Below, one piece after another: positions 7,132-55,800 of a stretch of 64,000 nt of DNA. A program made the translations under genes and the position numbers. The stretch comes from Cryptobacterium curtum DSM 15641 (GTDB lineage Bacteria > Actinomycetota > Coriobacteriia > Coriobacteriales > Eggerthellaceae). The stretch covers positions 310,001 through 374,000 of the forward strand of contig NC_013170.1 in assembly GCF_000023845.1 (NCBI RefSeq), given 5' to 3'. The notes under the pieces are model-generated. The model saw nothing but the letters and a program-made list of their open reading frames with translations. It was not told the origin of the DNA and searched no databases. The first letter of the stretch is position 1, and the number at the start of each line of letters is the position of its first letter.

Positions 7132-7358
7132 TTCTTACCTCCCTTCATAAAGGATTGAAACTCCTCGTCCTGCTGTTTGATAAGCCCTGTATAGTCCTGA
7201 TAACACGCCTCACAGAGTAGGCGGCTCGTCTGCACACCCTCCGCGTCTATGCGGGTGATCGTGTGCCAGAAGTGCCCGCCGGAGCTTCCCGGCTTTATGT
7301 ACTCCTTAGCCCCACATCTATCGCACTCATACAGGGTCACGCCCTCGGTCTTTGCCAT
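7128..7358 (-). CDS. Small zinc-ribbon protein between tail genes
   Basis: 76 aa with two CxxC pairs (ECDRCGAKEYI and LLCEACYQDY), a zinc-ribbon arrangement. It overlaps the next tail gene by 4 bases (ATGA). No known function; possibly a virion accessory or a nucleic-acid-binding morons-type protein. Confidence 0.7.
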   Translation of the reverse strand: MAKTEGVTLYECDRCGAKEYIKPGSSGGHFWHTITRIDAEGVQTSRLLCEACYQDYTGLIKQQDEEFQSFMKGGKK

Positions 7359-7376
7359 ATATTTACCTCCTTACCT

Positions 7377-36330: not shown

Positions 36331-37476
36331 ATGAGATCGTTTCATGGTGGCATAACGAAACTCGACAACGGTAGGTGGCAGGTTCGCGTAGAGTTTCCGC
36401 GTGATCGGATAACCGGCAAACGTAGGCAGATATCGAAGACCATAAGAGGAACGCGGCGTAAAGCTGAAAGAGTCAAGGCTGATATGCTTGCGGAAGCCGG
36501 GAAAGCCGATGTGACATGCGATGCGACCCTGCGCGAGTATGCCCTGGAAGAGTACTTGCCTTCCAAAGAGGCAGAATGTAAACAGAGCACAATAGATGGA
36601 TACCGTTGTAGGCTTGAGAACCATGTGCTGCCCTACTTAGGCGATATAGCACTAGAAGATTTACGCACTGCCACAATTAGACGATGGCTCGATCGTCTAG
36701 ATAAGTCTCAATCGGTCAAACGTGAAGCCTACAAGATACTCGATCAGGTGTGCAAGCATGCCATGTATCGTGACATGATGCAATCCAACCCATGCGACAG
36801 GATAAGGGTACCGAAGGTCAAACGCTACGAACCTGTAGTTCTCACTGCAGAACAGGCGATAGCTTACTTGGATCATTTCGAGGGTTCAAGTATTGAAATC
36901 GCAGTTCTACTAGCTCTCGGTTGCGGATTGAGACGCGGCGAGATTGCTGCCCTTAACGTAAGCGATATAAATTGGGAGACTGGCGCAGTCATTGTTGACG
37001 ATTCGTATGTAACAACCTCCAAAGGGACGATTCGCAGCACAACAAAGAACGGCAGAGCTCGTACTGTTCATATGCCAGAATCACTCTTAGCAAGGCTGCA
37101 CAAAATCGCCCCCAAGTCAGGTGCTCTACTCCAATGGGATGGCAGAAGATATAGACCGCATTCAATCACGGAAGCATATGAGCGCAAGATCCAATCACTT
37201 CCAGAAGGCTTGCCTAGAATTCCTCTGAAGAATCTTCGCCATACCTCTCTTACGCTTGCGTATGATTCAGGGGCGAGGATTACCGATGTGCGCGATCGCG
37301 CGGGTCATTCGTCGGAGGCAGTCACTGAACGATACTACGTAAGGCCAAAGATTTCACGTGATGCAGAGATAGCACAGGCGGTTGACTCTATGCTTTCTGA
37401 GCACTTCACAAAATTTCACAAGTGCACAGAATATGACTATATAGAAAGTGACTATAGTAATCACGAAATAGCCTAG
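36331..37476 (+). CDS. int: Tyrosine-type phage integrase
   Basis: 381 aa. AP2-like arm-binding N-terminus (KLDNGRWQVRVEFPRDRITG), SAM-like core-binding domain (about 65-150), catalytic domain with Arg201 (CGLRRGEIAAL), Lys239 (TTKNGRARTV), Lys300-Asn-Leu-Arg303-His304 (His of HxxR replaced by Lys, as in many relatives), His326 (AGHSSEAVTERYY) and Tyr335/336. Ribosome site GAGGAG. It ends 47 bases before the attR core and should integrate and excise the element at tRNA-Arg. Confidence 0.93.
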   Translation: MRSFHGGITKLDNGRWQVRVEFPRDRITGKRRQISKTIRGTRRKAERVKADMLAEAGKADVTCDATLREYALEEYLPSKEAECKQSTIDGYRCRLENHVLPYLGDIALEDLRTATIRRWLDRLDKSQSVKREAYKILDQVCKHAMYRDMMQSNPCDRIRVPKVKRYEPVVLTAEQAIAYLDHFEGSSIEIAVLLALGCGLRRGEIAALNVSDINWETGAVIVDDSYVTTSKGTIRSTTKNGRARTVHMPESLLARLHKIAPKSGALLQWDGRRYRPHSITEAYERKIQSLPEGLPRIPLKNLRHTSLTLAYDSGARITDVRDRAGHSSEAVTERYYVRPKISRDAEIAQAVDSMLSEHFTKFHKCTEYDYIESDYSNHEIA

Positions 37477-38796: not shown

Positions 38797-39006
38797 ATGA
38801 AGAGCTACATGGAACTGGTTGATTCAAGCGCAAGTGAAACCGAGATACGGCGCCACTTAGTGGATGGCCAGCGTGTATCGGTAGCATTGCGTATTCCCGA
38901 CACGCTGCGCGATGCAGCAAAGGAGGAAGCGGCACTTCGCGGCATGAGTTTCTCCGCTTTTGTGCGCACCTGCATGATCGAAGAGCTTGCAAAGAAAGGG
39001 GCATAA
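38797..39006 (+). CDS. Ribbon-helix-helix regulator of the R-M island
   Basis: 69 aa: RVSVALRIPDTLRDAAKEEA, ALRGMSFSAFVRTCMIEELA is a clear CopG/Arc-type fold (strand RVSVALRIP, two helices). It directly precedes the GIY-YIG gene and hsdM and probably represses the operon through the dyad at 38758-38778. TAGGAGC ribosome site. Confidence 0.82.
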   Translation: MKSYMELVDSSASETEIRRHLVDGQRVSVALRIPDTLRDAAKEEAALRGMSFSAFVRTCMIEELAKKGA

Positions 39007-39011
39007 TAGCT

Positions 39012-39845
39012 GTGCTAAACCTCCTGACCATGACCGTCCAACTTATCGACCGAGAGTCCGACGGGATCCGTATTTGTCGGGTTGAGGGTGAATCGCTTGT
39101 CACTGTAGTTGTTCCACGTGTAAAACTTTCAGAGGCAAAACATCTGCCAGATCTTCCACATCGTGGCATTTACTACTTGCTCGATGAAGATCATGGCGTA
39201 CTGAACCGAGTATACACTGGCCAAACCACGCAAGGTCTCTTGCGTTTGGAGGCGCATAAAGCAAAGAAGGAATTCTGGAACAAGGCTGTCATGTTTCTTG
39301 ATGATGACTACAACATCGATCGTGATGTTCTAGATTCACTTGAAGCTATGGCTATCGAATACGTCAGAAATCATGGCGATTACGAGACAGACAATACTGT
39401 TACGCCGACATCTAGGATTAATCCGTACAAGGAACGACGTGTCCAAGAGCTTCATGACAGTATTCTATTTCGTATGGAAGCATTGGGATATGACTTAAAT
39501 CGAACTTACAGCGGGCCCTCAGTCGGTAGCGCAACATTTCACACCAAGAAGCTTGGCGTGAAAGCTATTGGCCGTTACGACAAAGAGACGGGCAAGTTCA
39601 TTGTATTTGCAGGATCACAAATTGCATTGGACAAATCTATTATCAAAAATCGAATTGCTATTACAGTTCGTGCAGAGCAGTTTGGTGAAACTACCGAACG
39701 CACAACTTTAATCAACGATGTTGTCTTCCCGTCGCCCAGTGCTGCGGCAGTATTTGTACTGGGTGGAAGCCAAAACGGCTGGACCGAGTGGGTCGATGAC
39801 AACGGCAATACCTTAAGCGATATTTACCGCACAGAGGAGAACTAA
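39012..39845 (+). CDS. GIY-YIG nuclease domain protein with DUF4357
   Basis: 277 aa from GTG 39012 (ATG 39030 is an alternative). Residues about 50-135 resemble a degenerate GIY-YIG nuclease (HRGIYYLLDEDHGVLNRVYT, GQTTQGLLRLEAHKAKKEFW, LEAMAIEYVRN), and the C-terminus (FVFPSPSAAAVFVLGGSQNG-like, then WTEWVDDNGNTLSDIYR) is DUF4357. Such proteins commonly accompany type I R-M genes; whether it cuts DNA is unknown. It ends 3 bases before hsdM. Confidence 0.82.
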   Translation: MLNLLTMTVQLIDRESDGIRICRVEGESLVTVVVPRVKLSEAKHLPDLPHRGIYYLLDEDHGVLNRVYTGQTTQGLLRLEAHKAKKEFWNKAVMFLDDDYNIDRDVLDSLEAMAIEYVRNHGDYETDNTVTPTSRINPYKERRVQELHDSILFRMEALGYDLNRTYSGPSVGSATFHTKKLGVKAIGRYDKETGKFIVFAGSQIALDKSIIKNRIAITVRAEQFGETTERTTLINDVVFPSPSAAAVFVLGGSQNGWTEWVDDNGNTLSDIYRTEEN

Positions 39846-39848
39846 CAC

Positions 39849-42419
39849 ATGAACAAACAACAGCTGGCCTCGAAGATCTGGGAATCAGCCAACAAGATGC
39901 GCTCGACCATTGAGGCAAGCCAGTACAAGGATTACATCTTAGGTTTTATTTTCTACAAGTTCTTGTCAGAGACCGAGGTAGCACGCTTAAAAGCTAAGGA
40001 TTTTGCCGAGTCCGATCTACCAACCCTTACTGAGGACGATCCCGAAACAGTGGCATTTGTGCGGGGAGAGTGCGGTTACTTTATTGCCTATGACGATCTA
40101 TTCCAAACTTGGATTGCAAAGGGTAAGGACTTTGAAATTGCTGACGTGCGCGATGCGCTTTCCGCTTTTGATCGTAATGTGAGTCCAGCTCATAAGAAAG
40201 TTTTTGAAAAAATCTTCGAAACCTTGCAGACAGGGCTTTCGAAGTTAGGAACTGATGCTCGTAGTCAGTCGAAAGCTGCTCGCGATCTTATCCAGCTCAT
40301 CAAGGATATTCCTATGGACGGGCGCCAGGATTACGACGTGCTGGGCTACATCTATGAGTATCTTCTTGAAAAGTTCGCAACCAACGCGGGAAAGAAAGCC
40401 GGAGAGTTTTACACACCACATGAAGTGAGCCAGCTCATAAGTGAAATAGTCGCCTGGCATCTGCAGAGTCGTAGGCAAATTGAAATTTATGACCCTACTT
40501 CGGGCTCTGGTTCATTGCTTATTAACATCGGTAAAGCAGTCGCTCGTCGCAACGGTAACCCCGACAGTATTAAGTACTATGCGCAGGAATTGAAGGAGAA
40601 TACTTACAACCTGACGCGTATGAACCTGGTTATGCGCGGCATTTTGCCGGATAACATTGCGGTACGTAACGGCGATACACTGGCAGATGACTGGCCCTGG
40701 TTTGACACGGTAGAAAACAAGGACGAGACCTACAAACCTCTATTCGTTGATGCCGTTGTTTCTAATCCGCCTTATTCTCAAGATTGGGATCCTGTCGATA
40801 AAGAAATCGATCCACGCTTCGAGTATGGTGTAGCGCCTAAATCAAAAGCTGACTACGCCTTTTTGCTGCATGATTTATATCATCTACGCAATGACGGCAT
40901 TATGTGCATTGTCTTGCCTCATGGCGTGCTATTTCGCGGCGGCGAGGAAGGTTTGATACGCAGGAACCTCGTTGAGCACCGTCACATTCAGGCCATTATC
41001 GGCCTTCCCGCCAATATTTTCTTCGGTACGGGTATTCCTACCATCATCATGGTGCTGCGTAAGCAGCGTGCCGCAGGTGACGACAATGTTTTGGTAGTGG
41101 ATGCAAGTAAGTATTTCATGAAAGAGGGTAAGAACAACAAGTTGCGTGCCAGCGATATCAAACGTATCGTTGATGCCGTTACCACTAATACAGATGTCGA
41201 TAGCTTTAGCCGCTCGGTAACAATCGATGAGATTCGAAAGAATGATTACAACTTAAACATTCCGCGGTATGTCGATTCATCTGAAGCGCCCGAAGGTTGG
41301 GATGTTTTCGCTACGATGTTCGGCGGTGTGCCCGTTACAGAAGTGGATGCCCTTGACGAATATTGGACGGCCTGGCCCAGTTTGAAGGCACAGTTATTCA
41401 CCGACAACGGTAGCTCGTGCCTTACGCCCACGGCGAGCAATGTTGCTGAAGTGATAGCCGCAAATACCGATGTAAAAAGCTTTATCACTAGATTCAATCA
41501 AGCTATAGAAGGTTTTCCGAAAGCCATGGAAAACAGTTTGGTGGTTGCTCCTGAAAGCGTTGATACTCTTGCAGAAGAAGATGTACTAGCCAGCCAAATT
41601 GGACATATGCTTGCAGAAGTGCCATTAGTTGATGGCTACGACGCTTACCAGGCACTCGATGATGCTTGGCGCGACATTTCGGTTGACTTGGAAATCATTC
41701 AGTCCGAGGGATTTAATGCAGTGCGCAAAGTTGATCCTAATATGGTTGTCAAGAAAAAAAGAGGTGAAGATATTGAAGTTCAGGATGGTTGGGCAGGACG
41801 TATTCTTCCTTTCGAGTTGGTGCAGAGACAGTTTTTAGCGGACAGCCTAGCCGAAGTATCCAGTGCTGAAGCGCGACTTTCAGATATCGGTCAGGAGATT
41901 TCCGAAATTATCGAAAATCTTGACGAGGAAGACAAGAATTCGACGGACGCCATAAACGAGGCAGGCGATGCTTTTGTTTCTGCCGATTTGAAGAAGGCCG
42001 TTAAAGCAATTGGCAAGAATCCGGAGTCTGATTTTGAGGCATCGTTGGTTTGCGCTCAGAATCTACTCGAAGAAGAGAAGATCCTAAAGAAACAAGTAAA
42101 GGCGCAACGTATTGATCTGCACGAAGCAACTAAAAAGGTACTAGAGGGTTTAGATGATAGTCAGTGCAGAGAGCTGTTGAAGCTGAAATGGATTAAACCC
42201 TTATTTGAAAAACTATCTGTTTTACCTGGTGCGACAGTTGATGATTTCGTATCGAAAATCCAAGCGCTCTATGCGAAGTATGAAACCACTTACGCTGATG
42301 TTTGCAGTCAGATAGAAACCGCCGAGCTCGAACTTTCAAGTATGCTCGATGATTTAACGGGCAATGAATTCGATATGGCTGGAATAGCGGAACTCAAAAA
42401 ACTTTTAAGTGGTGAATAG
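39849..42419 (+). CDS. hsdM: Type I restriction-modification methyltransferase subunit
   Basis: 856 aa, longer than the usual 500-550. N-terminal HsdM helical domain (ASKIWESANKMRSTIEASQY, KDYILGFIFYKFLSE), SAM-binding loop DPTSGSGSLLINIG at about 215, catalytic NPPYSQDW at 306-313. The C-terminal 300 residues are an extra, mostly coiled-coil, region (about 560-856) often found in actinobacterial HsdM. It modifies adenine at the sites chosen by HsdS. Confidence 0.94.
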   Translation: MNKQQLASKIWESANKMRSTIEASQYKDYILGFIFYKFLSETEVARLKAKDFAESDLPTLTEDDPETVAFVRGECGYFIAYDDLFQTWIAKGKDFEIADVRDALSAFDRNVSPAHKKVFEKIFETLQTGLSKLGTDARSQSKAARDLIQLIKDIPMDGRQDYDVLGYIYEYLLEKFATNAGKKAGEFYTPHEVSQLISEIVAWHLQSRRQIEIYDPTSGSGSLLINIGKAVARRNGNPDSIKYYAQELKENTYNLTRMNLVMRGILPDNIAVRNGDTLADDWPWFDTVENKDETYKPLFVDAVVSNPPYSQDWDPVDKEIDPRFEYGVAPKSKADYAFLLHDLYHLRNDGIMCIVLPHGVLFRGGEEGLIRRNLVEHRHIQAIIGLPANIFFGTGIPTIIMVLRKQRAAGDDNVLVVDASKYFMKEGKNNKLRASDIKRIVDAVTTNTDVDSFSRSVTIDEIRKNDYNLNIPRYVDSSEAPEGWDVFATMFGGVPVTEVDALDEYWTAWPSLKAQLFTDNGSSCLTPTASNVAEVIAANTDVKSFITRFNQAIEGFPKAMENSLVVAPESVDTLAEEDVLASQIGHMLAEVPLVDGYDAYQALDDAWRDISVDLEIIQSEGFNAVRKVDPNMVVKKKRGEDIEVQDGWAGRILPFELVQRQFLADSLAEVSSAEARLSDIGQEISEIIENLDEEDKNSTDAINEAGDAFVSADLKKAVKAIGKNPESDFEASLVCAQNLLEEEKILKKQVKAQRIDLHEATKKVLEGLDDSQCRELLKLKWIKPLFEKLSVLPGATVDDFVSKIQALYAKYETTYADVCSQIETAELELSSMLDDLTGNEFDMAGIAELKKLLSGE

Positions 42420-42420
42420 C

Positions 42421-43035
42421 ATGGCCGCTAAATCGAAAACACCTGAGATCCGATTCAAGGGTTTTACTGACCCTTGGGAACAGCGTAAGTTGGGGGATGT
42501 GCTAACGGAAAGAAATATCCAACGCGCGCAGAGCGAGGATTTTCCATTGGTTTCGTTTACGGTTGAGAACGGTGTGACGCCAAAAACAGAGCGCTACGAT
42601 AGAGAGCAACTAGTGCGAGGAGATAGAGCTGCTAAGAAATACAAGGAAACGAGGTTGGATGATATCGTTTACAATCCAGCAAATCTGAAATTTGGAGCAA
42701 TAGCTAGAAATACTCTCAGAAACGCTGTATTTAGCCCTATCTACGTTACTTTCAATGTTGATGAAACTGCTGCCCCTAGCTTTATAGAAAAAGTGGTTAC
42801 AAGATCTAGGTTCATTCAGGGCGCATTGCGATATCAACAAGGCACAGTTTACGAAAGAATGTCCGTTAGTCCTGAAGAATTGTGTGACTTAAACGTGACA
42901 TTGCCTTATTTAGATGAGCAACAGTATATAGGAAGTTATTTCACCAACCTCGATCACCTCATCACCCTTCATCAGCGTAAGTGCGACAAGCTCAAACAGC
43001 TTAAGCAGTCCCTGCTCGAGAAGATGTTCGTATAA
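42421..43035 (+). CDS. hsdS: Half-size type I specificity subunit, expressed copy
   Basis: 204 aa, half the normal 400, with one target-recognition domain. N-terminus PEIRFKGFTDPWEQRKLGDV, C-terminus LDHLITLHQRKCDKLKQLKQ then SLLEKMFV. It is the only copy with both complete ends, directly behind hsdM, so it is the currently expressed specificity; half-subunits are known to work as dimers. Both borders of the variable part are recombination repeats shared with the two other copies. Confidence 0.9.
   Translation: MAAKSKTPEIRFKGFTDPWEQRKLGDVLTERNIQRAQSEDFPLVSFTVENGVTPKTERYDREQLVRGDRAAKKYKETRLDDIVYNPANLKFGAIARNTLRNAVFSPIYVTFNVDETAAPSFIEKVVTRSRFIQGALRYQQGTVYERMSVSPEELCDLNVTLPYLDEQQYIGSYFTNLDHLITLHQRKCDKLKQLKQSLLEKMFV
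42472..42498 (+). repeat. hsdS upstream recombination repeat, copy A
   Basis: Contains TGGGAACAGCGTAAGTTGGG (coding WEQRKLG). 27 bases identical to 44052-44078; 22 bases identical in inverse orientation to 49402-49423. Confidence 0.92.
42958..42981 (+). repeat. hsdS downstream recombination repeat, copy A
   Basis: CTCATCACCCTTCATCAGCG followed by TAAG (coding LITLHQRK). Also present at 44547-44570, 47941-47964, and inverted at 48933-48956. Confidence 0.92.
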
Positions 43036-43044
43036 GGAAAGCCT

Positions 43045-44040
43045 ATGTCGTATCAGCCGCCCTTTACTCTCAACAGCCAGATACTCGACCTTGTTGCCGA
43101 CATTGCTCAAAAGGTGGGCCGAGTGGATGCATATGGCCAGATCAATCGCAGTCTACAGCTGCGTAAGGAGAACCGTATACGGACTATCCATTCTTCTCTT
43201 GCTATCGAGAACAACACGCTTTCGCTTGAACAGGTTACGGCGGTGATTGAGGGTAAGCACGTTATCGCACCACCTAAAGACCTTCTTGAAGTGCAGAATG
43301 CTATTAAGGTCTACGAGAATATTGATTCATTTAATCCTCTTTCGGTGGACGATCTCCTTTGTGCCCACAAGGAGCTTATGGGCGGGCTTGTTCCCGAGGC
43401 GGGTAGACTGCGTAGCGGTAATGTAGGGATCTTCGCAGGTGAAAGGCTTATACATGCTGGCACGCCGGCAAAGTACGTTTCAAACGTTCTGACTGATTTA
43501 TTCTCATGGCTTGCTGCTGGCGAGTTTCATCCGCTTGTAACCTCGTGCGTGTTTCATTACGAGTTTGAGTTCATCCATCCTTTCCAAGATGGTAACGGTC
43601 GCATGGGCAGACTTTGGCAGACAATCATTTTGAGTAGATGGAACGACATTTTTGCATGGCTTCCTGTCGAAACGCTAGTCAAGGAACGTCAGAAAGACTA
43701 CTACGATGCACTCTCTGGTTCTGACGAGCAGGGTGACAGCACACGATTCATTGAGTTTATGCTCGGCATGATTTCACAGACACTTGATGATGTTCTTGCT
43801 TCTGGCAATGATGTCGGTATAAATGACGGTATAAATGTCGGTATAACGAATGCGGCAGAGGCTATGCGTGAGCAGTTGCTTTTGCTCGTGAGTGGTAATC
43901 CGAGTATAACTGTTAAACAAATGGCAGCTGAACTGGGTATAAGCACTCGTCAGACCGAACGAATCGTTTCAAGCTTAAAGCAGGAAGGTAAGCTTGTCCG
44001 TATTGGCGCTAATCGCAATGGTCGCTGGGAGGTACGATAG
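43045..44040 (+). CDS. Fic-domain protein (probable AMPylase) within the hsd operon
   Basis: 331 aa. Fic motif HPFQDGNGRMGR at 178-189, complete. An N-terminal inhibitory helix motif (SSLAIENNTLS, Ser51...Glu55-Asn56) predicts an auto-inhibited class II Fic. The C-terminus carries a winged helix (ITVKQMAAELGISTRQTERI) preceded by a small repeat GINDGINVGIT. It lies between two hsdS genes; 10 bases after hsdS1 and 2 bases before hsdS2. Known Fic proteins transfer AMP or other groups to proteins; the target here is unknown. Confidence 0.9.
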   Translation: MSYQPPFTLNSQILDLVADIAQKVGRVDAYGQINRSLQLRKENRIRTIHSSLAIENNTLSLEQVTAVIEGKHVIAPPKDLLEVQNAIKVYENIDSFNPLSVDDLLCAHKELMGGLVPEAGRLRSGNVGIFAGERLIHAGTPAKYVSNVLTDLFSWLAAGEFHPLVTSCVFHYEFEFIHPFQDGNGRMGRLWQTIILSRWNDIFAWLPVETLVKERQKDYYDALSGSDEQGDSTRFIEFMLGMISQTLDDVLASGNDVGINDGINVGITNAAEAMREQLLLLVSGNPSITVKQMAAELGISTRQTERIVSSLKQEGKLVRIGANRNGRWEVR

Positions 44041-44042
44041 GA

Positions 44043-44591
44043 ATGTCTTCTCCTTGGGAACAGCGTAAGTTGGGGGATTTTGCCTCAAAGAAGACCTCCA
44101 AGAACAATTCTTTGGCCTTTAGCGAAACTTTCACCAACTCTGCTGAACGTGGCGTTGTGAGTCAGTTGGACTACTTCGATCACGACGTCACGAATGCCGA
44201 AAGCATTGGCGGTTACTATGTGGTGGAACCGGACGACTTTGTCTACAACCCACGTATCTCTGTCACAGCTCCAGTAGGCCCCATTAATCGAAATCGACTA
44301 GGTAGAACTGGAGTTATGTCGCCACTATATACAGTCTTCGAAACCGATGAGTCAGTAGATAAGTGCTATCTCGAACATTTCTTTAGGACGCGAATTTGGC
44401 ATAAATTCATGTTTTTGGAAGGCAATAGTGGCGCTCGTTCTGACCGTTTCTCCATTGGAGATGAAACGTTCTTCGAGATGCCAATCGCCTGTCCACTGTT
44501 TGAGGAGCAAAGAGCAATCGCAAGCTACTTGGAATCAATAGATTCTCTCATCACCCTTCATCAGCGTAAGTTGAAGTTACTAAAATACTAA
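44043..44591 (+). CDS. hsdS: Second half-size HsdS, truncated by a frameshift
   Basis: 182 aa with a different recognition domain from hsdS1 but the same borders (SSPWEQRKLGDF at the start, SLITLHQRKLKLLKY at the end). After the stop the next frame continues NTKKAMLDKTFV to a TAG at 44622, exactly the expected C-terminus of an HsdS; the loss of one A in an A-run at 44582-44585 explains the break. It is probably a silent donor or a phase-off copy. Translation could be coupled to the Fic stop. Confidence 0.85.
   Translation: MSSPWEQRKLGDFASKKTSKNNSLAFSETFTNSAERGVVSQLDYFDHDVTNAESIGGYYVVEPDDFVYNPRISVTAPVGPINRNRLGRTGVMSPLYTVFETDESVDKCYLEHFFRTRIWHKFMFLEGNSGARSDRFSIGDETFFEMPIACPLFEEQRAIASYLESIDSLITLHQRKLKLLKY
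44052..44078 (+). repeat. hsdS upstream recombination repeat, copy B
   Basis: Identical over 27 bases to copy A; direct orientation. Confidence 0.92.
44541..44570 (+). repeat. hsdS downstream recombination repeat, copy B
   Basis: GATTCTCTCATCACCCTTCA and the next 10 bases are identical over 30 bases to 47935-47964, and over the last 24 to copy A. Confidence 0.92.
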
Positions 44592-44631
44592 GAAAGCAAT
44601 GCTCGATAAAACGTTTGTCTAGGAGCTTTAC

Positions 44632-47600
44632 ATGATTTACGAAAACGAAGCTGATTTCGAAGAAGCGGTTATCAACGTCTTAAAGCAGCACGGCTGGGAT
44701 GACGCTGATGGCGTTATAAAATATCCGACCGAGGCAGACTTGATTCGAAATTGGGCGGAAATTCTGTATCAGAATAACTCTGATCGTGACCGCCTGAATG
44801 GCTTTCCCCTTACAGATGGTGAGATGGCGCAAGTCATTGAGCAGGTTGAGGCTTTACGGAGTCCGCTTGCGCTCAATGGTTTCATCAACGGAAAAACTGT
44901 TGCCATTAAACGCGATAATCCTGATGATGCGGCACATTATGGTCGTGAAGTGAGTCTGAATATTTATGACCGCCGCGAAATTGCTGGTGGTAAAAGCCGA
45001 TACCAGATTGCCCAGCAGCCTAGATATCCCGCGAAGAATAAGCTATTGAACGATCGGCGTGGAGATTTATGTCTGCTTATCAATGGCATGCCGCTTATTC
45101 ATATCGAGCTGAAACGCAGTGGCGTTTCGATAAGTCAAGCATGCAATCAGATAGAGAAGTATTCTCATGAAGGAGTATTCACCGGAATTTTCCGGTTGGT
45201 GCAGCTTTTTGTTGCCATGAATCCTGATGATGCTGTTTATTTCGCCAACCCTGGTGCAGGAAATTTTAATTCGAATTTCTATTTCCACTGGGCTGACTTT
45301 AACAACGAACCCTATTGTGCCAACCAGAATCCGGGCGCCGATGATTGGAAACGTTTTACTTCGAGTTTACTTTCTATTCCCATGGCGCATCAGATGATCG
45401 GCTTCTATACCGTGGCCGATTCAGGGGATGGTTGCTTAAAAGTCCTGCGCAGTTATCAGTACTATGCCGCTAGTTCTATTTCTGACCATGTACGCGCATG
45501 CGATTGGGGAGCATCAACGCCTGCGGGCACGCCTGGAAGACCTGGTGGTTATATATGGCATACCACAGGTTCTGGCAAGACCATGACATCGTTTAAGGCT
45601 GCGCAGTTGGTTGCGGATTCCAGAGACGCTGACAAGGTCGTTTTTCTCATGGATCGCATTGAGCTTGGAACCCAATCGCTTAAGGAGTACCGAGCTTTTG
45701 CCGACGATGCTGATGACGTTCAAGCTACTGAAAACACTGATGTTCTGCGCCATAAGCTTGTTGAAAGCACCGACCCCAAAGACACTCTTATTGTTACTTC
45801 TATCCAGAAAATGAGCAATGTGAAAGTTGGTGAAGGTGGGATTACTCAGGCTGAACTCGATCGTATGGCCAAGAAGCGTATCGTTTTTATCCTCGACGAA
45901 TGCCATCGTTCGACTTTTGGCACCATGCTACAGGATATTCGCACTAGTTTTCCCAATGCGTTGTTCTTTGGATTTACAGGCACTCCCATCCAGGAAGAGA
46001 ACAAGAAAAAGGGCGCAACAACGTCGATGATATTCGGCAATTGTTTGCATCGCTACAGCATTGCTGATGGCATTCGCGACGGCAATGTACTCGGCTTCGA
46101 CCCGTGTATGGTTACTACGTATAAAGATAAAGACGTGCGTAAAGCAGTTGCACTTGAGCAGGCAAAGGCCGACTCTGTCGAGGCTGTGATGGAAAATCCG
46201 AAGAAGGAGGAAATCTTTTATTACTGGATGAATGAGGCACCCATGGGTCCAAGGGTCAGCGACGCTGGCGAATATATCAAAGGCGTCGAGGATTTTATGA
46301 AGTCTGTCCAATACGATGAGGACACTCCCCATGAATATCAGGTAATCAATGACATCGTTGAGCAATTTCCGATATTAAGTCACGGTAATAAGTTTCACGC
46401 CATTCTGGCCACGAGCTCAATTTCAGAAGCTATCAGCTACTACCGTCGTCTTAAGGAGTGTGCCCCGCAGCTTAAATGCACTGCATTGTTTGATCCGAGT
46501 ATTGATAACAATGATGGCGCTACAGTGAAGGAAGATGCGCTTGTTGAAATTATCGGGGACTATAACGATACCTATGGCAAGGAATTTGCTATTCCTACCT
46601 GGGGAAGTATGAAGAAAGATATATCGTCCCGATTAGCGCATAAAGAACCATACCTAAATATCGATAGCAACCGAGACAAGCGCATCGATATCTTAATAGT
46701 GGTCGACCAGATGCTTACAGGTTTCGACTCGAAGTGGGTGAATACACTGTATCTGGATAAGGTTATCGACTACGAAAGTATTATTCAGGCATTCAGTCGA
46801 ACGAATCGTTTGTTCGGTCCCGAAAAACCCTTTGGCGTGATCCGCTATTACCGCAAACCTCACACTATGTCTGGCTATATCAAAGCAGCAGTAAAGCTGT
46901 ATTCGGGCGACAAACCGCTCGATCTGTTTGTGCAGAAGCTTCACCAGAATATCAAGATGATGGATGCGCGTCTATTAGAGATAAAGGCACTATTTCAAGC
47001 TAACGGCGTGAGCGATTTAAGCCGATTGCCAGACTCTCGAGAAGCACGCGCTAAGTTCGCAAAAGACTTTGTAGAGCTGAGTCACTTTCTTGAATCTGCT
47101 CAGGTGCAGGGCTTTAGTTGGGACAAAGTAGAGTATGAATTTGAACCCGGCACGCTCGATGAGTCCATGCGTGATGAATTAAGAATGATAGATGGCGGAT
47201 ACGAGTCTTCGGGTAATTATATGATTGTGAAACCTAATATCGATGAGCGGACATACTTGATTTTAGCGCAGCGATATAAGGAGCTGTTTAAGTCTAAACT
47301 GGGTCCTACACCCGATGATGTTCCGTACGATATTGACGGACATTTAACGGAAATTGATACGGGAAAAATCGATACTGACTATATGAATTCAAACTTTGTG
47401 AAGTGGCTAAAAGCTCTAAACAGTGGCGACGACAATTTAGAAGCAGCTTCTGAAGAGTTACATCGTTCGTTTGCATCGCTGCCGCAGGACGAGCAACGTC
47501 TTGCGGAATTGTTTTTGCATGATGTTGAACGAGGGGACGTGAAGCTTGAGGATGGAAAGACGTTACGTGATTACATCACAGCGTATGGCCGCCATGAGAA

Positions 47601-47865
47601 GGATAGCCAATTCGATAAGGTGGTTGAGGCTTTAGGTGTTGATCGTGATTTACTGGTTGAGATGGCTGGTCTGGACCTAACGGAGGAGAACATCAACGAG
47701 TATGGACGGTTCGATCGTTTGAAGAACAGCATCGATAAGACCACAGCTAAGACGTATTTCGAAAGAGTCGAGGGCGTGTCAATTGCCCCGTTTAAGGTGC
47801 ATGTAAAAGCTGATGAACTGTTAAAACGCTTTATTATTGAAGGTGGATTCGATTTAAATGATTAG
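44632..47865 (+). CDS. hsdR: Type I restriction enzyme, R subunit
   Basis: 1077 aa. N-terminal nuclease half with NGMPLIHIELKRSGV (the ExK of the PD-(D/E)xK core) at about 155, Walker A GYIWHTTGSGKTMTS near residue 305, DEAD-like ILDECHRSTFGTM near 421, helicase motifs FFGFTGTPI and later DILIVVDQMLTGFDSKWVNT and IIQAFSRTNRL. Complete. Ribosome site AGGAG overlaps the stop of the original full-length hsdS2. It translocates and cuts unmodified DNA. Confidence 0.95.
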   Translation: MIYENEADFEEAVINVLKQHGWDDADGVIKYPTEADLIRNWAEILYQNNSDRDRLNGFPLTDGEMAQVIEQVEALRSPLALNGFINGKTVAIKRDNPDDAAHYGREVSLNIYDRREIAGGKSRYQIAQQPRYPAKNKLLNDRRGDLCLLINGMPLIHIELKRSGVSISQACNQIEKYSHEGVFTGIFRLVQLFVAMNPDDAVYFANPGAGNFNSNFYFHWADFNNEPYCANQNPGADDWKRFTSSLLSIPMAHQMIGFYTVADSGDGCLKVLRSYQYYAASSISDHVRACDWGASTPAGTPGRPGGYIWHTTGSGKTMTSFKAAQLVADSRDADKVVFLMDRIELGTQSLKEYRAFADDADDVQATENTDVLRHKLVESTDPKDTLIVTSIQKMSNVKVGEGGITQAELDRMAKKRIVFILDECHRSTFGTMLQDIRTSFPNALFFGFTGTPIQEENKKKGATTSMIFGNCLHRYSIADGIRDGNVLGFDPCMVTTYKDKDVRKAVALEQAKADSVEAVMENPKKEEIFYYWMNEAPMGPRVSDAGEYIKGVEDFMKSVQYDEDTPHEYQVINDIVEQFPILSHGNKFHAILATSSISEAISYYRRLKECAPQLKCTALFDPSIDNNDGATVKEDALVEIIGDYNDTYGKEFAIPTWGSMKKDISSRLAHKEPYLNIDSNRDKRIDILIVVDQMLTGFDSKWVNTLYLDKVIDYESIIQAFSRTNRLFGPEKPFGVIRYYRKPHTMSGYIKAAVKLYSGDKPLDLFVQKLHQNIKMMDARLLEIKALFQANGVSDLSRLPDSREARAKFAKDFVELSHFLESAQVQGFSWDKVEYEFEPGTLDESMRDELRMIDGGYESSGNYMIVKPNIDERTYLILAQRYKELFKSKLGPTPDDVPYDIDGHLTEIDTGKIDTDYMNSNFVKWLKALNSGDDNLEAASEELHRSFASLPQDEQRLAELFLHDVERGDVKLEDGKTLRDYITAYGRHEKDSQFDKVVEALGVDRDLLVEMAGLDLTEENINEYGRFDRLKNSIDKTTAKTYFERVEGVSIAPFKVHVKADELLKRFIIEGGFDLND

Positions 47866-47889
47866 CGAATGATTGTTTAGTTAGTTGTT

Positions 47890-47919
47890 GGGCCGTGGCA
47901 TTTTTGTCGCGGCCCTTTT
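47890..47919 (+). terminator. Terminator after hsdR
   Basis: GGGCCG (47890-47895) pairs with CGGCCC (47910-47915), followed by TTTTGTTT. Confidence 0.8.
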
Positions 47920-47934
47920 GTTTCAACCTGGGAA

Positions 47935-47964
47935 GATTCTCTCATCACCCTTCATCAGCGTAAG
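47935..47964 (+). repeat. hsdS downstream recombination repeat, orphan copy C
   Basis: Identical over 30 bases to 44541-44570 but with no recognition domain attached. It lies 28 bases before the recombinase gene, facing copy D beyond it, so the recombinase gene itself is flanked by inverted repeats. Confidence 0.92.
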
Positions 47965-47991
47965 CGGCTATTCACTTCGAAGGGGTTAATC

Positions 47992-48915
47992 ATGGAAGCA
48001 AATCAGGATCAACAGCTGTTTTGCGAGTATTACACACGTTGGGTAAAGGTATACAAAGAGGGTGCCATTCGTGATGTCACCATGGATAAGTACCGCTTAA
48101 CACAATCGTGGCTTGATAAGCTTGTACCGAACCTTAGACTCTGCGACCTCACTCGCATAAGTTATCAGCAGCTTATTAACGATTATGCCGAGCATCATGA
48201 GCGACAAACGACAATGGACTTTCATCATCAATTGAAAGGGTCAATTTTAGATGCTGTTGACGAAGGTCTTATTCCGCGTGACCCTACGCGGAAGGTGATA
48301 ATTAAGGGAAGGCAACCAAAGCCAAAGAAGATAAAGTACCTAAACCAATTCGAGCTTCACGCAATGCTTGCCGATCTTGATTTAGGGAAAGAAGCTACAC
48401 TTGACTGGCTTATTTTGCTTATTGCTAAAACTGGCTTGCGGTTCTCCGAAGCACTTGGATTGATGCCGGCAGATTTTGACTTCACACACCAAACGGTATC
48501 TGTGAATAAGACTTGGGATTACAAGCGTAATGGCGGGTTCGTTCCAACAAAGAACGTTTCTTCTGTTCGCAAAGTTCAACTCGATTGGCAATTAGTGATG
48601 CAACTTGCTGGTCTTCTCAAGGAATTACCTGCTGAAAAGCCTATTTTTGTTGATGGGAAAGTTTACAACTCGACTGCCAATGGGGTTCTTGCTAGGCATT
48701 GTAAACGAGCTGGAGTTCCTGTAATTACAATTCATGGACTTCGTCATACACATGCTTCACTGTTGCTATTCGCAGGTGTTTCGATCGCGAGTGTTTCTAG
48801 AAGACTTGGTCATGCAAGCATGACGACAACTCAGGAAACTTATTTACATATTATTCGCGAGCTTGAGAATCAAGACATTGATATTGTTATGCGTTCGCTG
48901 GCGGCGCTTTCTTAA
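47992..48915 (+). CDS. Tyrosine recombinase of the hsdS inversion system
   Basis: 307 aa. Catalytic residues visible: Arg in TGLRFSEALGL, Lys in VNKTWDYKRN region, HGLRHTHASLLL, LGHASMTTTQETYLHI (His/Tyr). N-terminal SAM-like domain YTRWVKVYKEGAIRDVTMDK. It is of the family that shuffles hsdS genes in Gram-positive bacteria, lies inside the hsd locus, and is bracketed by the repeats it is expected to recombine. Confidence 0.9.
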   Translation: MEANQDQQLFCEYYTRWVKVYKEGAIRDVTMDKYRLTQSWLDKLVPNLRLCDLTRISYQQLINDYAEHHERQTTMDFHHQLKGSILDAVDEGLIPRDPTRKVIIKGRQPKPKKIKYLNQFELHAMLADLDLGKEATLDWLILLIAKTGLRFSEALGLMPADFDFTHQTVSVNKTWDYKRNGGFVPTKNVSSVRKVQLDWQLVMQLAGLLKELPAEKPIFVDGKVYNSTANGVLARHCKRAGVPVITIHGLRHTHASLLLFAGVSIASVSRRLGHASMTTTQETYLHIIRELENQDIDIVMRSLAALS

Positions 48916-48926
48916 ACGATTATCAA

Positions 48927-49433
48927 CTAACGCTTACGCTGATGAAGGGTGATGAGGTCGTCGAGCCGCATGAAGTAGTTAGAAATTGATCGTTGCTCCT
49001 CAATTGTTGAAGGAATGTCCGCATCAATTTCAGCAAAACGTTCATACTTTAGCGTCTGCGTGTCCTTTGAATTACCTTGAGAATCACAGAGATATTTGTA
49101 CAACATTCCTGGTCGCTTTAACAGATAACCAAAACATGTGGAGTCAAGCTTCATACGTGGTCTAACAACCACATAAGCTGGGCTTACGATGCCATTATAT
49201 CGGCTAGAACCAACTGCGCCCTGCCACATGCGCATACTGTTGTATACGATGTCTCCTATGCGCACAACCTTGTAATTATTGATGCTTGCTCCAGGGTTGG
49301 TGTCTCGGTCTGACTCTGAAGCAGGATAAATACCGTTAGCCACACTTACTGATAGAATCTCTTCTGTTGCTGAACGCAGATCACTTTCCTCGAACAACTC
49401 GCCCAACTTACGCTGTTCCCAAGCGGGCAGCAA
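48927..49433 (-). CDS. hsdS: Third HsdS fragment, inverted donor cassette
   Basis: 168 aa on the minus strand. PAWEQRKLGELFEES at the start and RLDDLITLHQRKR at the end, with a third, different recognition domain (SVSVANGIYPASESDRDTNP...). It lacks the C-terminal helix and an own strong ribosome site, so it is best read as a silent specificity cassette awaiting inversion. Both ends coincide with inverted copies of the repeats in hsdS1. Confidence 0.88.
   Translation of the reverse strand: MLPAWEQRKLGELFEESDLRSATEEILSVSVANGIYPASESDRDTNPGASINNYKVVRIGDIVYNSMRMWQGAVGSSRYNGIVSPAYVVVRPRMKLDSTCFGYLLKRPGMLYKYLCDSQGNSKDTQTLKYERFAEIDADIPSTIEEQRSISNYFMRLDDLITLHQRKR
48933..48956 (-). repeat. hsdS downstream recombination repeat, inverted copy D
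   Basis: Exact 24-base inverse of copy A (42958-42981). Confidence 0.93.
49402..49423 (-). repeat. hsdS upstream recombination repeat, inverted copy C
   Basis: Exact 22-base inverse of the core of copy A (42472-42498). Confidence 0.92.
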
Positions 49434-49801
49434 ACGAAATAGGTCTCAGCACCAACAAGACAATTTGCTTAATACCGCAGTGCATTTTGGACTTCTCAAT
49501 ACCAATAGGGCGGGAAAGCATTCCAGCACGATAAGAAAATCTGAATAATTTGTGGGGTTTCAAAAAAGTTGCCGAAGTGTTGCCATAGCAACAACAGTTT
49601 CCTTTTCTTCGTGCTAGAAGTAATCCACAGTTAATTATTAGTTACACCTAACTCTTACGGCAACCGTTTAACTCGTGCCAAAGGGGTGGGTGTAACTGCT
49701 GAGCATTCTATAAGTACAGGCACCTTATACCTTATAAGTGCCCACAAACATATGTACCGACAAATGCTCAGATTGCAAGGGTAATTCTCAAGGGGATTTA
49801 C
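49434..49801. other. Long intergenic region upstream of the giant surface protein
   Basis: No credible gene. It holds the palindrome GTTGCCATAGCAAC (49579-49592), an extra half-site GTTGCC at 49568-49573, a TATAAG box near 49709, and an imperfect hairpin (49719-49742: GGCACCTTATA against TTATAAGTGCC) close to the first frame. A promoter is expected here but no pair of boxes is convincing. Confidence 0.55.
49579..49592. promoter_or_regulatory. GTTGCCATAGCAAC palindrome, copy 1
   Basis: A 14-base dyad (one central mismatch) with flanks GTGTTGCC...ACAAC. An almost identical perfect palindrome stands upstream of the transporter at 58175-58188, suggesting one regulator for both loci. Confidence 0.55.
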
Positions 49802-49852
49802 ATGAACAGTCTTGCTGGTTGTGTTGGTTTATCTGCCGTGATGGGAGCGTAA
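49802..49852 (+). CDS. Possible 16-aa leader peptide
   Basis: ATG...TAA coding MNSLAGCVGLSAVMGA, with AAGGGGA about 9 bases upstream, ending 2 bases before the start of the giant protein. It could couple translation; it may equally be chance. Confidence 0.3.
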   Translation: MNSLAGCVGLSAVMGA

Positions 49853-49854
49853 AG

Positions 49855-52800
49855 ATGGATATTTTGACGAAGGATGGGCTATTGCGGAGGGTACTCGCTG
49901 CCTTCTTCGCCGCGGTTTTGGCGGTCTCGATGGTTCCTACTCCAGCATTAGCTGCAGGTAGTGCCGATAGCGCAAATCGCACAGCTGAAGCGCAGCAGCA
50001 ACTAAATTCAGCATCTTCTCAGGAAGATTCATCCGATGACGCCTCTTCATCGGGGTCAAACGACGCTGAAGAATCTGATTCGGCACATTCCAACGCTACG
50101 GAATCAAGCAATGCAGATAGTCAAGAGAGCACTTCTGACCAGCAATCGAGTACAAAGGAAAGTGCCTCAACAAGCAATTCGGGAGAATCAGACAGCACCT
50201 CAAGCAGCGACGCGACTGTCCAAAATAGTGCCGCAGAATCAGTAACCGAATCATCCACGGAAGAATCTTCAGCTGAAGTGCTTGAGCGATCTGTCGCTGA
50301 AGGGAAAGAACTACTTTCTGCCGCCTTCTCGTCGGCTCCGTATGATGCCGATAACCCTTACACAAAGGTCGAAGTGGGCAAGTATGCACCAGGTACGTAT
50401 ACCGTAACGGCTAACCTATTTATTCCTGCTTCCAAAAACCCCTTCAACAAGTCTATTCAGGCGTATATGACTAATCCGGAAAACCCGCTGGGTATTGTTG
50501 AGCCAGACAATGGTGATCCCAGTGCAGTTACGGGTGGGGTTCCCATTTTCCACGTTAACAAGAATGCCACGCTTATCGTGGGCGAAGATGACTCCCTCAC
50601 ATTGACGATTCCTATTCGCAACCCTGTGTTTACGCTGCAGGGCATTGGCAGTGGGCAGGGTGTTGAATTGCTGAGCGCGCATACGCGCGCAGGCCAATAT
50701 GGACCTCGTGGTGCTTCAGGTGAAATACTATCGGTTGGCCATACGAGTCGCGTTGATTCAGTTACCTTTAAGCTATCCAATAGTGGCAAGACTACTGACG
50801 GAAGCGATGGGTACACCATCCAGGGATGCAGTGAATACCCCACAATTCTCGATCAGAACTGGCATGTCGATCTTGATTTAACGGTTGATCTTTCGAATGT
50901 GCCTGCTTCTCAAAAATATGTTGCCAACCCCGTGGTCTCGCAGGATCTTGCTTATACCGGTCACGAACAACAGGGCGTGACATTTGAAATTGACAAGTGT
51001 GAGGTCACATCTGGTACGGCAGTTGCTACCAATGCAGGCGACTATTCAGTCACGCTCAAGCCGAAAGCCGGCTTTGTGTGGTTTGACGGCACAACTGATG
51101 AGTGTACCTTCGATTGGACAATTGCTAAGGCTCAGGTTGTTAAGAAATACGAGGTAGTTGTACCGTGCTCGGAAGATGTTTCTGAAACTATTGCCGCATT
51201 GCCTTCGGCTGATACAGTCAATGCGAATTTTACGTATGAGGGGCTTGCCGAAGGAGATACTCCCGAGTCGCTTGGCATTTCTGGTCAGACGTTTGATTCA
51301 TGGTGGATGGGAGAATTAGAGTACGCCCAAACGATGCCCGAAATGTTCCATAATCTCGTTCCCACTGCATTAGAGGGTGAGTTCTCTGGTGAAAATGTGG
51401 GAACGGACAACTATGAGGTAAGCACTAAAGCGATCGCACATATTACTTTGGCACCAGGTCAGATGCCTATTGCCCATGATGTGGTGTATAACGGAGCAAG
51501 CCAGCTTGGTGTTGAGCAAGCAGATGGCACTCCATTTACCAATGTGGGTGATGGAAAAACTCGATGGACTCCCTGGAACGACTTTACTCAGACCTGGTTT
51601 CTGAATCTAGCCGCGCGTTCGTTTATTGACGTTGGCACCTATTCCGTTACACTTTCTCCGAGTGAGAACTGGGCATATGCAGACGGCTATTGGTCTGATG
51701 GAACGCATGAGCCCAAGACCCTTTCATGGGAAATTAAGCCTGCAACCTTAACGGCAAAAGCGCGTGACATTTATATTCATGAGGGCGAAGTTGCCAATTT
51801 GAAGGTGGACGTATCAGGCTTTGTTGCCCAAGAAAGTGCTGGCACTATAGCAGGATATGAAGCCCCGGTAGCTACTGTCGAAAACGGTAACACGAGTACG
51901 CTTTCAGTTGGCGATTATCCGATTACTGTTTCGGGTGGTAACGCGAAAAATTACGTATTTGAATACCGTTCGGCAACACTGCATGTGCTGCCCGCCAACA
52001 CAGCTGCTGTTCCATTTGTGGAATCTAATCTAACGTATATCGGTAAACAGCAAGTTGGCGTTTCAACAGGTGCAGGATATACCGTTGAAGGAGGCACGGC
52101 TACCGATGCGGGCACCTATACCGCCACCGCAACACTAGCCGATGGTGTTTCAAAATGGGCCGATGGGAGCACCGAAAAGAGTCGTACGTTTGAATGGTCT
52201 ATTGCTAAGGCAGAGCTAAAGGCGACATATATAAATGAATCGGTGTCTCGTAAAGACTATGAATCAGGCAAGGATGCTCCGGCGTTCCGTATAAAGGTGA
52301 CGGGTTTTGTACATGGTGAAAGTCCTGAAGAAGGAACTGTTGCTAACTACGTTGCACCTGAGCTTTATTTGTACAAGGGCGAGGTAGGAGCAGCCGATCT
52401 TAAGGCGTCCGACTGGAAAGCCGATGAAGACAGTGCTGATTACGCTTTTATTCCAGCAGGAGGAAGCGCTAAGAACTACGAATTCTCTTCCTATAAGTGG
52501 GGAACCTTAGATCTTATTCACGATGCAGAGGACAATTATCGTGCCGCCTTCCCTTATATCGAAACACCGTTAACATACACTGGCAAACAGCAAACAGGTG
52601 TTTATTCTCGTGTAGGCAGCACCGTTATTACCGGTGCCTCGGGTGTAGATGTGGGAACCTATAAAGCAACGGTAGCACTTGATGATGAGCGTACTGGCTG
52701 GTGGGAAAGTAATTGGTATGGCGAAAATGAGAAGCCAACTGGGGAGACGCGCATTATTTCTGCCCAGTGGTCCATTGTCAAGGCACCGCTAGCAGCCAAG

Positions 52801-55800
52801 GCTCAAGACGTTACCATCACCGCAGGCGATGCTATTCCGTCGTTTACCGCTGAAGTAAGTGGCTTTAAGAATGGTGAAGCGTCCGAGAATGCTGCTGGCT
52901 ACAAGGCTCCTACGGTGTCGCTTCCTGCCGGTGTATCTGCCAATACCCTTGAAGCAGGTAAGAGCTACGAGCTTTCCGTTTCGGGCGGCAGCGCTGACAA
53001 TTACACGTTTGCCGATTACGAATCGGGTACACTTACTGTGCTTCCACGCGGTACAGTAGCCGAACCCACGGTTGCCCAAGGTCTTACCTACACGGGTAGC
53101 GAACAGCGTGCCATTCAGGAAAATGAGGCCTGGACACTTTCAGGTGCTACTGCCACTGCTGCAGGCGACCACGAAACAACCGTTACGCTCAATGCTGGTT
53201 ATCGCTGGGCTGATGGTTCTACTGCACCAAAGACGTATCACTGGTCCATTAATAAGGCATCGCTGACTGCTACCTATGCGGGCGAAGAAATTACCGAAGG
53301 CGAAACACCTGCTCTGAAGGTGGATGTAACCGGCTTTGTTGGCGGCGAGACAGCCGATACAGCAGCTGGATATGCCGCTCCGATCGCTTCACTTCCCGAA
53401 GGTGTATCTGCCGATACGCTTGAAGCTGGCAAGAGCTATGAGCTTTCTGTTTCAGGTGGTGCGGCCGATAATTACACGTTTACCTATGCAGCTGGTACGC
53501 TTACGGTAAAGGCAGCAGACCAACCGCAGCCAGGTAAGCTTGCACCAGGTACGTATACGGTAACGGCTAACATCTCAATGATGACACCTCTTGGATTCCC
53601 TGGATATACGACAAATCCTTTCAACCCTGAGGGTATTGGCGGTAAGGGCGGTATTCCAGATGCCCCTGTTTCTAATAACGCCACATTGATAGTTGGTGCT
53701 GATGGAACGTATACACTTTCTCTCAATTTGGTTAACCCTGTTTTCACCGTGCAGAATGCAGAAAGTAGTGATGGGGTGACCGTTGAAGCTGTCGATAGAG
53801 TTCCTATTGAACAGAAAGATGACGACGAAGAATATAACAAGTCTGTAGCTGCCGATGGAGTTACTTCGCGCATAGCTCATATGACTCTTAAGCTGAATGA
53901 TGTAAGCGGCAGCTATCATTTCGATAACTGGAAGGTGTATGCGACTACTCTTAATACATTCTTCCCGAATAGTCGGTATCCGCAGATAAATTCTCTTGAT
54001 TTGTCTGTTGATTTCGATCACGCGCAAAAGCAAGTGGAAGGTGATTATTCAAAGACCTTCACCGACCATGCAACGGGTGTGAGTGTTACCGTTTCAGCTG
54101 AAAAAGGTGCCGATACTATTTCTCAACTGGAAAAAGCTTCACTTCAAGTTGAAAAGGTTGAAGCGGGATCAGAACACGATGGCGCCGTACAGGCATTGAT
54201 GCAATTATATGCCTCTACACCGAGTTTTTCTTTCTACAAGATTTCACTTATTGCAGATGGGGAAGCCGTCAGCTTTGATGACAAAACTGCTGCAGAGGTT
54301 TCAATTCCGACTACACAGACAAGTGCTGATGTTTATTCCTTTAAGAAGGCATCATTGAGCGCTATTTCATCTCAAACGTCTTCAGGTGTGACCACATGTA
54401 AGTCGTCACAGCTCGGTAGTTTTGTGGTAGTTGATTCCCAAGGAGCCGCTAAGTTTACCTGGTCGCACACAGTGCGGAATGCATCAACGGGCGCTTCGAT
54501 GACCTATTCCACCGATGCGAGTGTGGAAGATACACTTTTTGAGTCTGCCTATGGCCCAGGACATGGTCTTGAAGCTCTTGAATGGTATGGGAGCTATATG
54601 GATGAGAGCGGGGTTTCATCCTCGCAGGCACCCGACTCATTTAGTGAGAAAGCGCTTGCTGCTGCGAAGGAGTCTGGCAGCAATAGTTTAACCGTTGCGG
54701 GTACTTATGCCATGGGCATCTCTTATTCCATGGATGGCACAGGAGTGCCCAATAACTTATTTGACTCGCTTGCTCTTGGCTATACCTTCACGGCAGGCGT
54801 CAACCCACTTTCAGCGGTTGTGCCAGTAGGTAACAATGATGCTTCGGTCTATGCTGTCTATGGGACGGTTGGTGAAGGAGCAACAGGTGCTAAGAAACTT
54901 GATGCTCAAATAGCCGATGGATATGCCAAGGTGTCGCTCAATGATTCTGATGCACAGATACCAGGGTTGAGTTCGATGCTCTTCCATGCTGCTGCTAATG
55001 TGGGGGACTATACTGGAGCACCACAAACGGCAGAAACACAGATTGCCTATCTGGTTGCAGTTGAACCTTCAACTCACAAAATTGCAAAGCCAACTGCCGC
55101 AGAAGGGCTTATCTATAATGGCCAAGAACAAACCGGTGTACCTGAAGCTGAAGGGTATGATGTTACAACCTCTCAAGCAAGTAATGCCGGTACCTATCAA
55201 AGTGTCGTAACGCTGAAAGACGGCTATCTCTGGTCTGACGGTACAAAGGATGCTTTGACTATCAACTGGTCAATTGCCAAAGCAGAGCTTAATGCCACTG
55301 CTGCAGATGAAACCATTACGCAGGGACAAACCCCTGCCTATCAGGTAAACGTGACGGGCTTTGTCAATGGTGAAACAGCCGATACGGCAGCTGGCTATAC
55401 TGCTCCTGTTGCATCGCTTCCCGAAGGGGTATCTGCCGATACGCTTGAGTCTGGTAAGAGCTATGAGCTTTCTGTTTCAGGTGGTGCGGCCGATAATTAC
55501 ACGTTTACCTATGCAGCCGGTACGCTTACGGTAAAGGCAGCAGACCAACCGCAGCCAGGTAAGCTTGCACCAGGTACGTATACGGTGACAGCCAATCTTG
55601 CAATGCCTGGACAGTACAACCCAGTGATCAAAGGTCTCACGGTATATGCCAATAGTCCTGACAATCCCTTTGGCCCTACGATTGATGAAAACAATCCGGC
55701 CGAGGTTCACAATACAGTGCCGTCAAATCCGCAAAGCGCCAATGCAAAACTTGTCGTGGGTGTTGATGGCACGAAGACACTTATTCTGCCGGTGAAGAAT

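Follow-up and report, generated by a model that had tools for sequence, protein, structure and literature searches.

The 64-kb window considered here, the whole stretch of DNA that was analyzed, covers positions 310001-374000 of the single 1,617,804-bp contig of Cryptobacterium curtum 12-3T, the type strain of an oral actinobacterium (PMC3035227). It holds a type I restriction-modification (RM) locus in which the DNA specificity very probably switches through the shuffling of target recognition domains (TRDs) by a tyrosine recombinase acting at two kinds of short site, upstream (U) and downstream (D). This is a known kind of system, type I hsdS shuffling, odd in its split S gene, and the name "shufflon" given to it in the first-pass annotation would apply by analogy only, the R64-type shufflon being marked by an rci-type recombinase and sfx repeats in pilV. 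On the plus strand the locus reads DUF4357 gene, hsdM, hsdS1, fic, hsdS2, hsdR, a probable terminator, the orphan site D0 and the recombinase, followed by hsdS3 on the minus strand. HsdM, HsdR, Fic, the tyrosine recombinase and three type I specificity domains were recognized by Pfam, NCBIfam and PADLOC in agreement; the hsdR, hsdM and hsdS genes are all present with open reading frames, and the C-terminus of HsdR is of the EcoR124 type, which places the system with the type IC (EcoR124-like) RM enzymes. The features are, in window positions:

39012..39845, plus strand: DUF4357 protein, PADLOC PDC-S14 candidate (Pfam PF14267, 1.5e-15; PDC-S14, 5e-52)
39849..42419, plus strand: hsdM, type I methyltransferase (PF02384, 8.8e-104; TIGR00497 above cut-off)
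42421..43035, plus strand: hsdS1, half-size specificity subunit with TRD1 (PADLOC Specificity_I, 8e-42)
42473..42494, plus strand: upstream recombination site U1, exact repeat copy
42958..42981, plus strand: downstream recombination site D1, exact repeat copy
43045..44040, plus strand: Fic, SoFic-like (PF02661, 8e-18; PADLOC SoFic, 1.3e-44)
44043..44591, plus strand: hsdS2 with TRD2, own ATG, C-terminal helix shortened
44053..44074, plus strand: upstream recombination site U2, exact repeat copy
44547..44570, plus strand: downstream recombination site D2, exact repeat copy
44632..47865, plus strand: hsdR, EcoR124-like (type IC-like; PF12008 EcoR124_C, 1.6e-30; PF18766; TIGR00348 above cut-off)
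47890..47915, plus strand: probable intrinsic terminator, 11-bp stem then TTTT, which would close the hsd operon
47941..47966, plus strand: orphan downstream site D0 upstream of the recombinase, perfect inverted partner of D3
47992..48915, plus strand: tyrosine recombinase, 307 aa (PF00589, 7.2e-18)
48927..49433, minus strand: hsdS3, inverted TRD3 cassette (PF01420, 9.7e-6; PADLOC, 3.4e-23)
48931..48956, minus strand: downstream recombination site D3, inverted, pairs with D0
49402..49423, minus strand: upstream recombination site U3, inverted, exact repeat copy

The three TRDs share pairwise only 31-34% amino-acid identity and are framed by common repeats. The upstream repeat CTTGGGAACAGCGTAAGTTGGG (22 bp) is present in three exact copies, at 42473-42494 and 44053-44074 on the plus strand and at 49402-49423 on the minus strand, and the downstream repeat CTCATCACCCTTCATCAGCGTAAG (24 bp) in four, at 42958, 44547 and 47941 (plus) and at 48933 (minus); each was expected 0.00 times by chance in 100 shuffles. 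U1 and U2 have 27 bp in common, and 47941-47966 forms with 48931-48956 a perfect 26-bp inverted pair. Within the whole genome, CAGCGTAAGTTG and ATCACCCTTCATCAGCGT occur four times each, all at this locus, and a core search of the 1,617,804 bp found neither site elsewhere. The upstream site, TTGGGAACAGCGTAAG, encodes WEQRK and the downstream site, ATCACCCTTCATCAGCGT[AAG], encodes ITLHQR[K], with the nine bases CAGCGTAAG common to both. The recombinase gene lies between the last two downstream repeats, D0 and D3, as the first-pass annotation had noticed together with the three unlike recognition regions, one of them inverted, within shared repeats. Its product is intact, with the conserved catalytic-type motifs TGLRFSE, HGLRHTH, LGHAS and Y284. 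As in an hsdS inverton, the locus carries extra variable TRD copies, including the inverted orientation, bordered by common repeats, and it encodes its own site-specific recombinase with intact catalytic-type residues. Three of the downstream copies belong to TRDs; D0 at 47941 is an orphan with no TRD attached. In the stretch 47925-47964 it is preceded by CCTGGGAA, which looks like an upstream site (CCTTGGGAA) in truncated form; the arrangement is what the deletion of a TRD body from between the two sites might leave.

The sites are near-invariant in DNA across Actinomycetota, Bacillota and Pasteurellaceae. To examine their codons, cassettes were located by protein motifs first and the codons were read afterwards, for 192 upstream and 177 downstream sites from about 90 recombinase-bearing loci of several phyla (30-66% GC). 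Codons inside the sites are nearly fixed (GAA 192/192, CAG 191/192, AAG 186/192, CTT 177/177), and those flanking them vary and track GC, the adjacent Leu being CTC in 93 cases and CTT in 75. Because single codons are kept inside the sites while free, GC-following codons stand just outside, selection at the DNA level would be the only explanation that our analysis offers for the frozen codons. An HsdS with WEQRK from a genome of the family without the recombinase was sought as a codon control; there was none in the sample, and the adjacent codons were used instead.

TRD exchange at such sites is seen in other species. A scan of genome contigs for the recombinase gave more than 560 candidates, of which 80 were kept; within the bacterial family, 18 further genomes have homologues, 67-81% identical except for one outlier at 58%. 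Five loci hold TRD duplicates that are 99.8-100% identical with unrelated flanks, the identity beginning within 1-5 bases of TTGGGAACAG and stopping 3-4 bases past CATCAGCGT, and at three of the five (L032, L054, L069) one copy occupies a silent slot and its twin an active one. In Enterococcus raffinosus, two TRDs bounded by the same two sites have reciprocally traded places between the megaplasmid of an isolate from human urine and that of an isolate from river water, each TRD being 100% identical in both; the recombinase, 62.5% identical to that of C. curtum, is collinear between the exchanged TRDs, matching one upstream plus one downstream inversion. The repeats also match the published inversion sites agcttgggaacagcgt and ctatcgctcttcatcagcgtaagttagat of the Listeria monocytogenes CC8 hsd locus, where inversion produces four arrangements (PMC4783014). 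Since random sites also reach 14/16 and 18/29, the identity of the Listeria and window sites (14-15/16 and 19-22/29 bases) is read together with their position within WEQRK and ITLHQRK. Taken together, these comparisons strongly support the recombinase-driven TRD shuffling that had been suggested from the repeats.

The silent-slot TRD of L031, from a metagenome-assembled genome of Eggerthellaceae, is 96% identical in DNA to the active-slot TRD of L080, against 71% for their recombinase genes, and therefore cassettes are read as moving between genera too. A slot swap between L031 and L048 (Collinsella stercoris) was rejected as proof: the flanks of the slots are conserved, but TRD similarity is only 71-76%. 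The recombinase genes of these two hsd loci are 92% identical in DNA, which suggests, from sequence comparison, a recent transfer of the whole hsd locus between families. The L. salivarius plasmids L192 and L193 (S35 vs S40) are otherwise identical and differ by a 2.1-kb inversion at 6781-8895, located between GbpC/Spa surface-protein genes and bounded by the 28-bp inverted repeat GAATCCAAGTGATAAGATATTTGAGGTG. They were not counted toward the hsdS case, since their recombinase, a relative with 56% identity to the C. curtum one, adjoins invertible surface-protein genes and not hsdS; because of this adjacency, the recombinase family is considered to switch adhesins also.

We propose that the recombinase would act on the two short site kinds framing every TRD. 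An inversion between upstream sites, then one between downstream sites, would put the inverted TRD3 in the place of TRD1 (or TRD2) and vice versa, with the gene order restored, and the swap would change the motif that is methylated and restricted. Enumeration on the map of the inversions between opposite sites gave 72 reachable arrangements. Five single inversions are possible: D0 x D3 turns only the recombinase around, and each of the remaining four reverses hsdR. One inversion between 42472 and 49402 had been thought sufficient to swap specificity; on the map, U1 x U3 alone gives an hsdS1 that gains TRD3 but ends in LITLHQRKR and a stop, without the C-terminal helix, so that a second, downstream-site inversion is needed, and U x U plus D x D yields a complete hsdS1 with TRD3 and everything else restored. 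That scheme is further qualified by the fact that all inversions touching the expressed hsdS reverse fic and hsdR as well. Single steps reaching hsdS1 or hsdS2 would therefore pass through an intermediate in which the reversed hsdR is predicted to be severed from the operon promoter. In 11 of the 28 comparable loci (C. curtum included) every invertible interval contains hsdR, in 16 none does, and one locus is mixed, so that the restriction-off intermediate would be a feature of one sub-layout only.

Two wider readings are put forward together and tentatively, as possible rather than probable: that the specificity switch is mechanically coupled to a shut-off of restriction, and that the frozen sites, shared across phyla, turn TRDs into interchangeable, cassette-like parts between genera. 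In the first, the TRD change behind hsdM would turn hsdR away from its promoter, and methylation with the new specificity would precede the return of restriction at the second inversion.

The direct pairs U1/U2 and D1/D2 could excise a 1.58-kb circle, and shuffling might proceed mainly through RecA-dependent homologous recombination, or through excision and reintegration of circles via direct repeats, and not by inversion. The direct copies U1/U2 and D1/D2/D0 would provide for it, the pneumococcal tvr locus is known to work by excision and reintegration via direct repeats (PMC6265443), no site on the opposite strand occurs in a further 14 loci of the survey that have hsdS, hsdR and recombinase, and inversion alone leaves the TRD duplications of the relatives unexplained. 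We nevertheless regard this route as unlikely to be the main one: sites of 22-27 bp are short for RecA, the inverted TRD3 reaches hsdS1 by inversion only, and the Listeria sites recombine by inversion (PMC4783014).

The anatomy of the S genes bears on whether the locus still switches. hsdS1 encodes 204 aa from the ATG at 42421 (the open reading frame starts from GTG 42409) and has a complete N-terminus, TRD1 and a C-terminal helix ending in KMFV and a stop. It is the sole half-size complete HsdS of about 38 surveyed, the other complete active ones having two TRDs and full length (359-446 aa among those listed), and the half-size layout is as unusual as first supposed. hsdS2 starts 2 bp after fic and lacks the RFxGFTD N-terminal segment; an early stop follows LITLHQRKLKLLKY, and just after it, in another frame, comes the remnant KKAMLDKTFV with its stop, much as HsdS proteins usually end. 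The frameshift might also stem from a sequencing error in the run of A at the 3' end (CTAAAATACTAAG). hsdS3 has neither the N-terminal segment nor the C-terminal helix and ends in LITLHQRKR and a stop. That only the copy behind hsdM is complete, the rest being silent donors, therefore stands for the ends and fits TRD3; for the 44043 copy the silent role is unproven, since its own ATG, a GGAGG about 10 nt upstream and its place directly behind Fic suggest that it may be translated. The simplest history of the half-size hsdS1-Fic-hsdS2 order would be a full-length hsdS split by fic and frameshifted later. In the sequenced state the specificity expressed is that of hsdS1 (TRD1), whose product would act either with itself, as a homodimer, or in combination with hsdS2 (TRD2). 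Since single-TRD S subunits can homodimerize (NgoAV, EcoDXXI) and separated halves can cooperate (PMC3874165), the present enzyme could, by analogy, read either a TRD1/TRD1 palindrome or a TRD1/TRD2 hybrid sequence.

The same anatomy is compatible with a shuffling system by descent that is now locked or decaying in C. curtum, fic having split hsdS, hsdS2 having been frameshifted and one cassette having been lost at D0, with HsdS1 alone working as a fixed half-size homodimer of the NgoAV kind. The uniqueness of the half-size hsdS1, the frameshifted C-terminus of hsdS2 and the orphaned D0 are in agreement with this, as is the natural NgoAV, which has a fragmented S gene and palindromic specificity (PMC3874165); the recombinase is intact, and the copies of each site remain identical, with no drift, which leads us to rate it slightly less probable again than the RecA or excision route. 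Several points do weigh against ongoing TRD shuffling in C. curtum. The analysis covered one C. curtum genome, in one arrangement, and switching there would follow by comparison with other genomes; TRD3 has just one inverted site of each type; and D0 together with the hsdS2 frameshift indicates some decay, so that switching could be slowing or blocked.

The weakest alternative, that the repeats reflect protein-level conservation of WEQRKL and ITLHQRK, which are indeed conserved motifs of this HsdS subfamily, in ordinary paralogues beside an unrelated mobile-element integrase, is hardly credible: chance and protein-only conservation are ruled out by the shuffles, the genome counts and the synonymous positions, which across phyla and GC contents are frozen in the sites and vary right beside them, the TRD identity blocks stop at the sites, and the WEQRK-type motif was not found in sampled HsdS from family genomes without the recombinase, one such locus having a related LTLHQS with 3/18 bases different.

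Fic carries the HPFQDGNGRMGR motif (HPFxDGNGRxGR), a candidate N-terminal inhibitory motif SLAIEN and a C-terminal winged helix. Its place inside the locus had been called unusual, which holds as far as rarity goes and not as uniqueness: in three other genomes, orthologues with 64-67% identity are neighbors of cassettes or hsdS, and at a fourth locus a more distant Fic (26%) stands between hsdS and hsdR. Fic is for this reason a recurrent but uncommon passenger of such loci. The flipped donor, also thought unusual, is ordinary in this family.

Around the locus, a 69-aa DUF6290-like open reading frame and then the DUF4357 gene (38797-39845) stand ahead of hsdM; the latter, a probable operon partner, adjoins hsdM or hsdR in the relatives L030, L031, L035 and L188 too. 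Terminator-like matches overall are not above the shuffled expectation, a caveat for the call at 47890-47915. A second, unrelated phage-type integrase of 381 aa (36331-37476), about 26% identical to the shuffling recombinase, lies 2.4 kb upstream of hsdM, and the hsd locus may for this reason be in or beside a mobile island. On the other side, 305 bp beyond the inverted cassette, begins a 2439-aa surface-type protein (49738-57057) that has several internal repeats and whose C-terminus is predicted to anchor it in the membrane.

These data place a probable epigenetic and phage-defense switch in an actinobacterium of the mouth that is associated with periodontitis and has one complete genome. 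The two near-invariant recombination sites, common to several phyla, are a general resource from the comparison: such loci become findable by a simple DNA search, and TRDs can be treated as exchangeable cassettes. The layout with hsdR inside would suggest, in a form that can be tested, how the chromosome is spared from its own type I system upon a change of specificity.

Among the known systems, the domain movement (DoMo) in Helicobacter pylori hsdS is, to our knowledge, not tied to a locus-encoded recombinase. It resembles the C. curtum locus in that TRDs change position within S genes (PMC3077401). NgoAV and the truncated EcoDXXI/EcoR124I S subunits share the single-TRD S, homodimers being functional there and separate N- and C-halves restoring the wild-type enzyme, without a link to a shuffling recombinase or Fic (PMC3874165); by anatomy alone, hsdS1, a single TRD with complete N- and C-terminal parts, is like these half-size subunits. 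The pneumococcal tvr/SpnIV locus has TRD-sized cassettes, a tyrosine recombinase and two repeat kinds as here, but works by excision-reintegration via direct repeats and includes an attenuator and toxin-antitoxin homologues (PMC6265443). At the Streptococcus pneumoniae cod/Spn556II (SpnD39III) locus, a locus-encoded tyrosine recombinase, PsrA, likewise uses short inverted repeats, by which hsdS segments are inverted between an expressed gene and two silent ones (PMC4948785, PMC7096588); its repeats measure 15, 85 and 298 bp, and its catalytic-type Tyr is at 247, in contrast to 284 in C. curtum. The Listeria monocytogenes CC8 locus LMR479A_0528-0532 has hsdR, hsdM and opposite-oriented hsdS genes flanking a tyrosine recombinase, and inversion sites of two kinds whose cores match those of C. 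curtum (PMC4783014). It differs by its two full-length hsdS genes, four observed variants and no fic as described (PMC4783014), whereas C. curtum has a half-size S interrupted by fic and hsdR within the invertible span.

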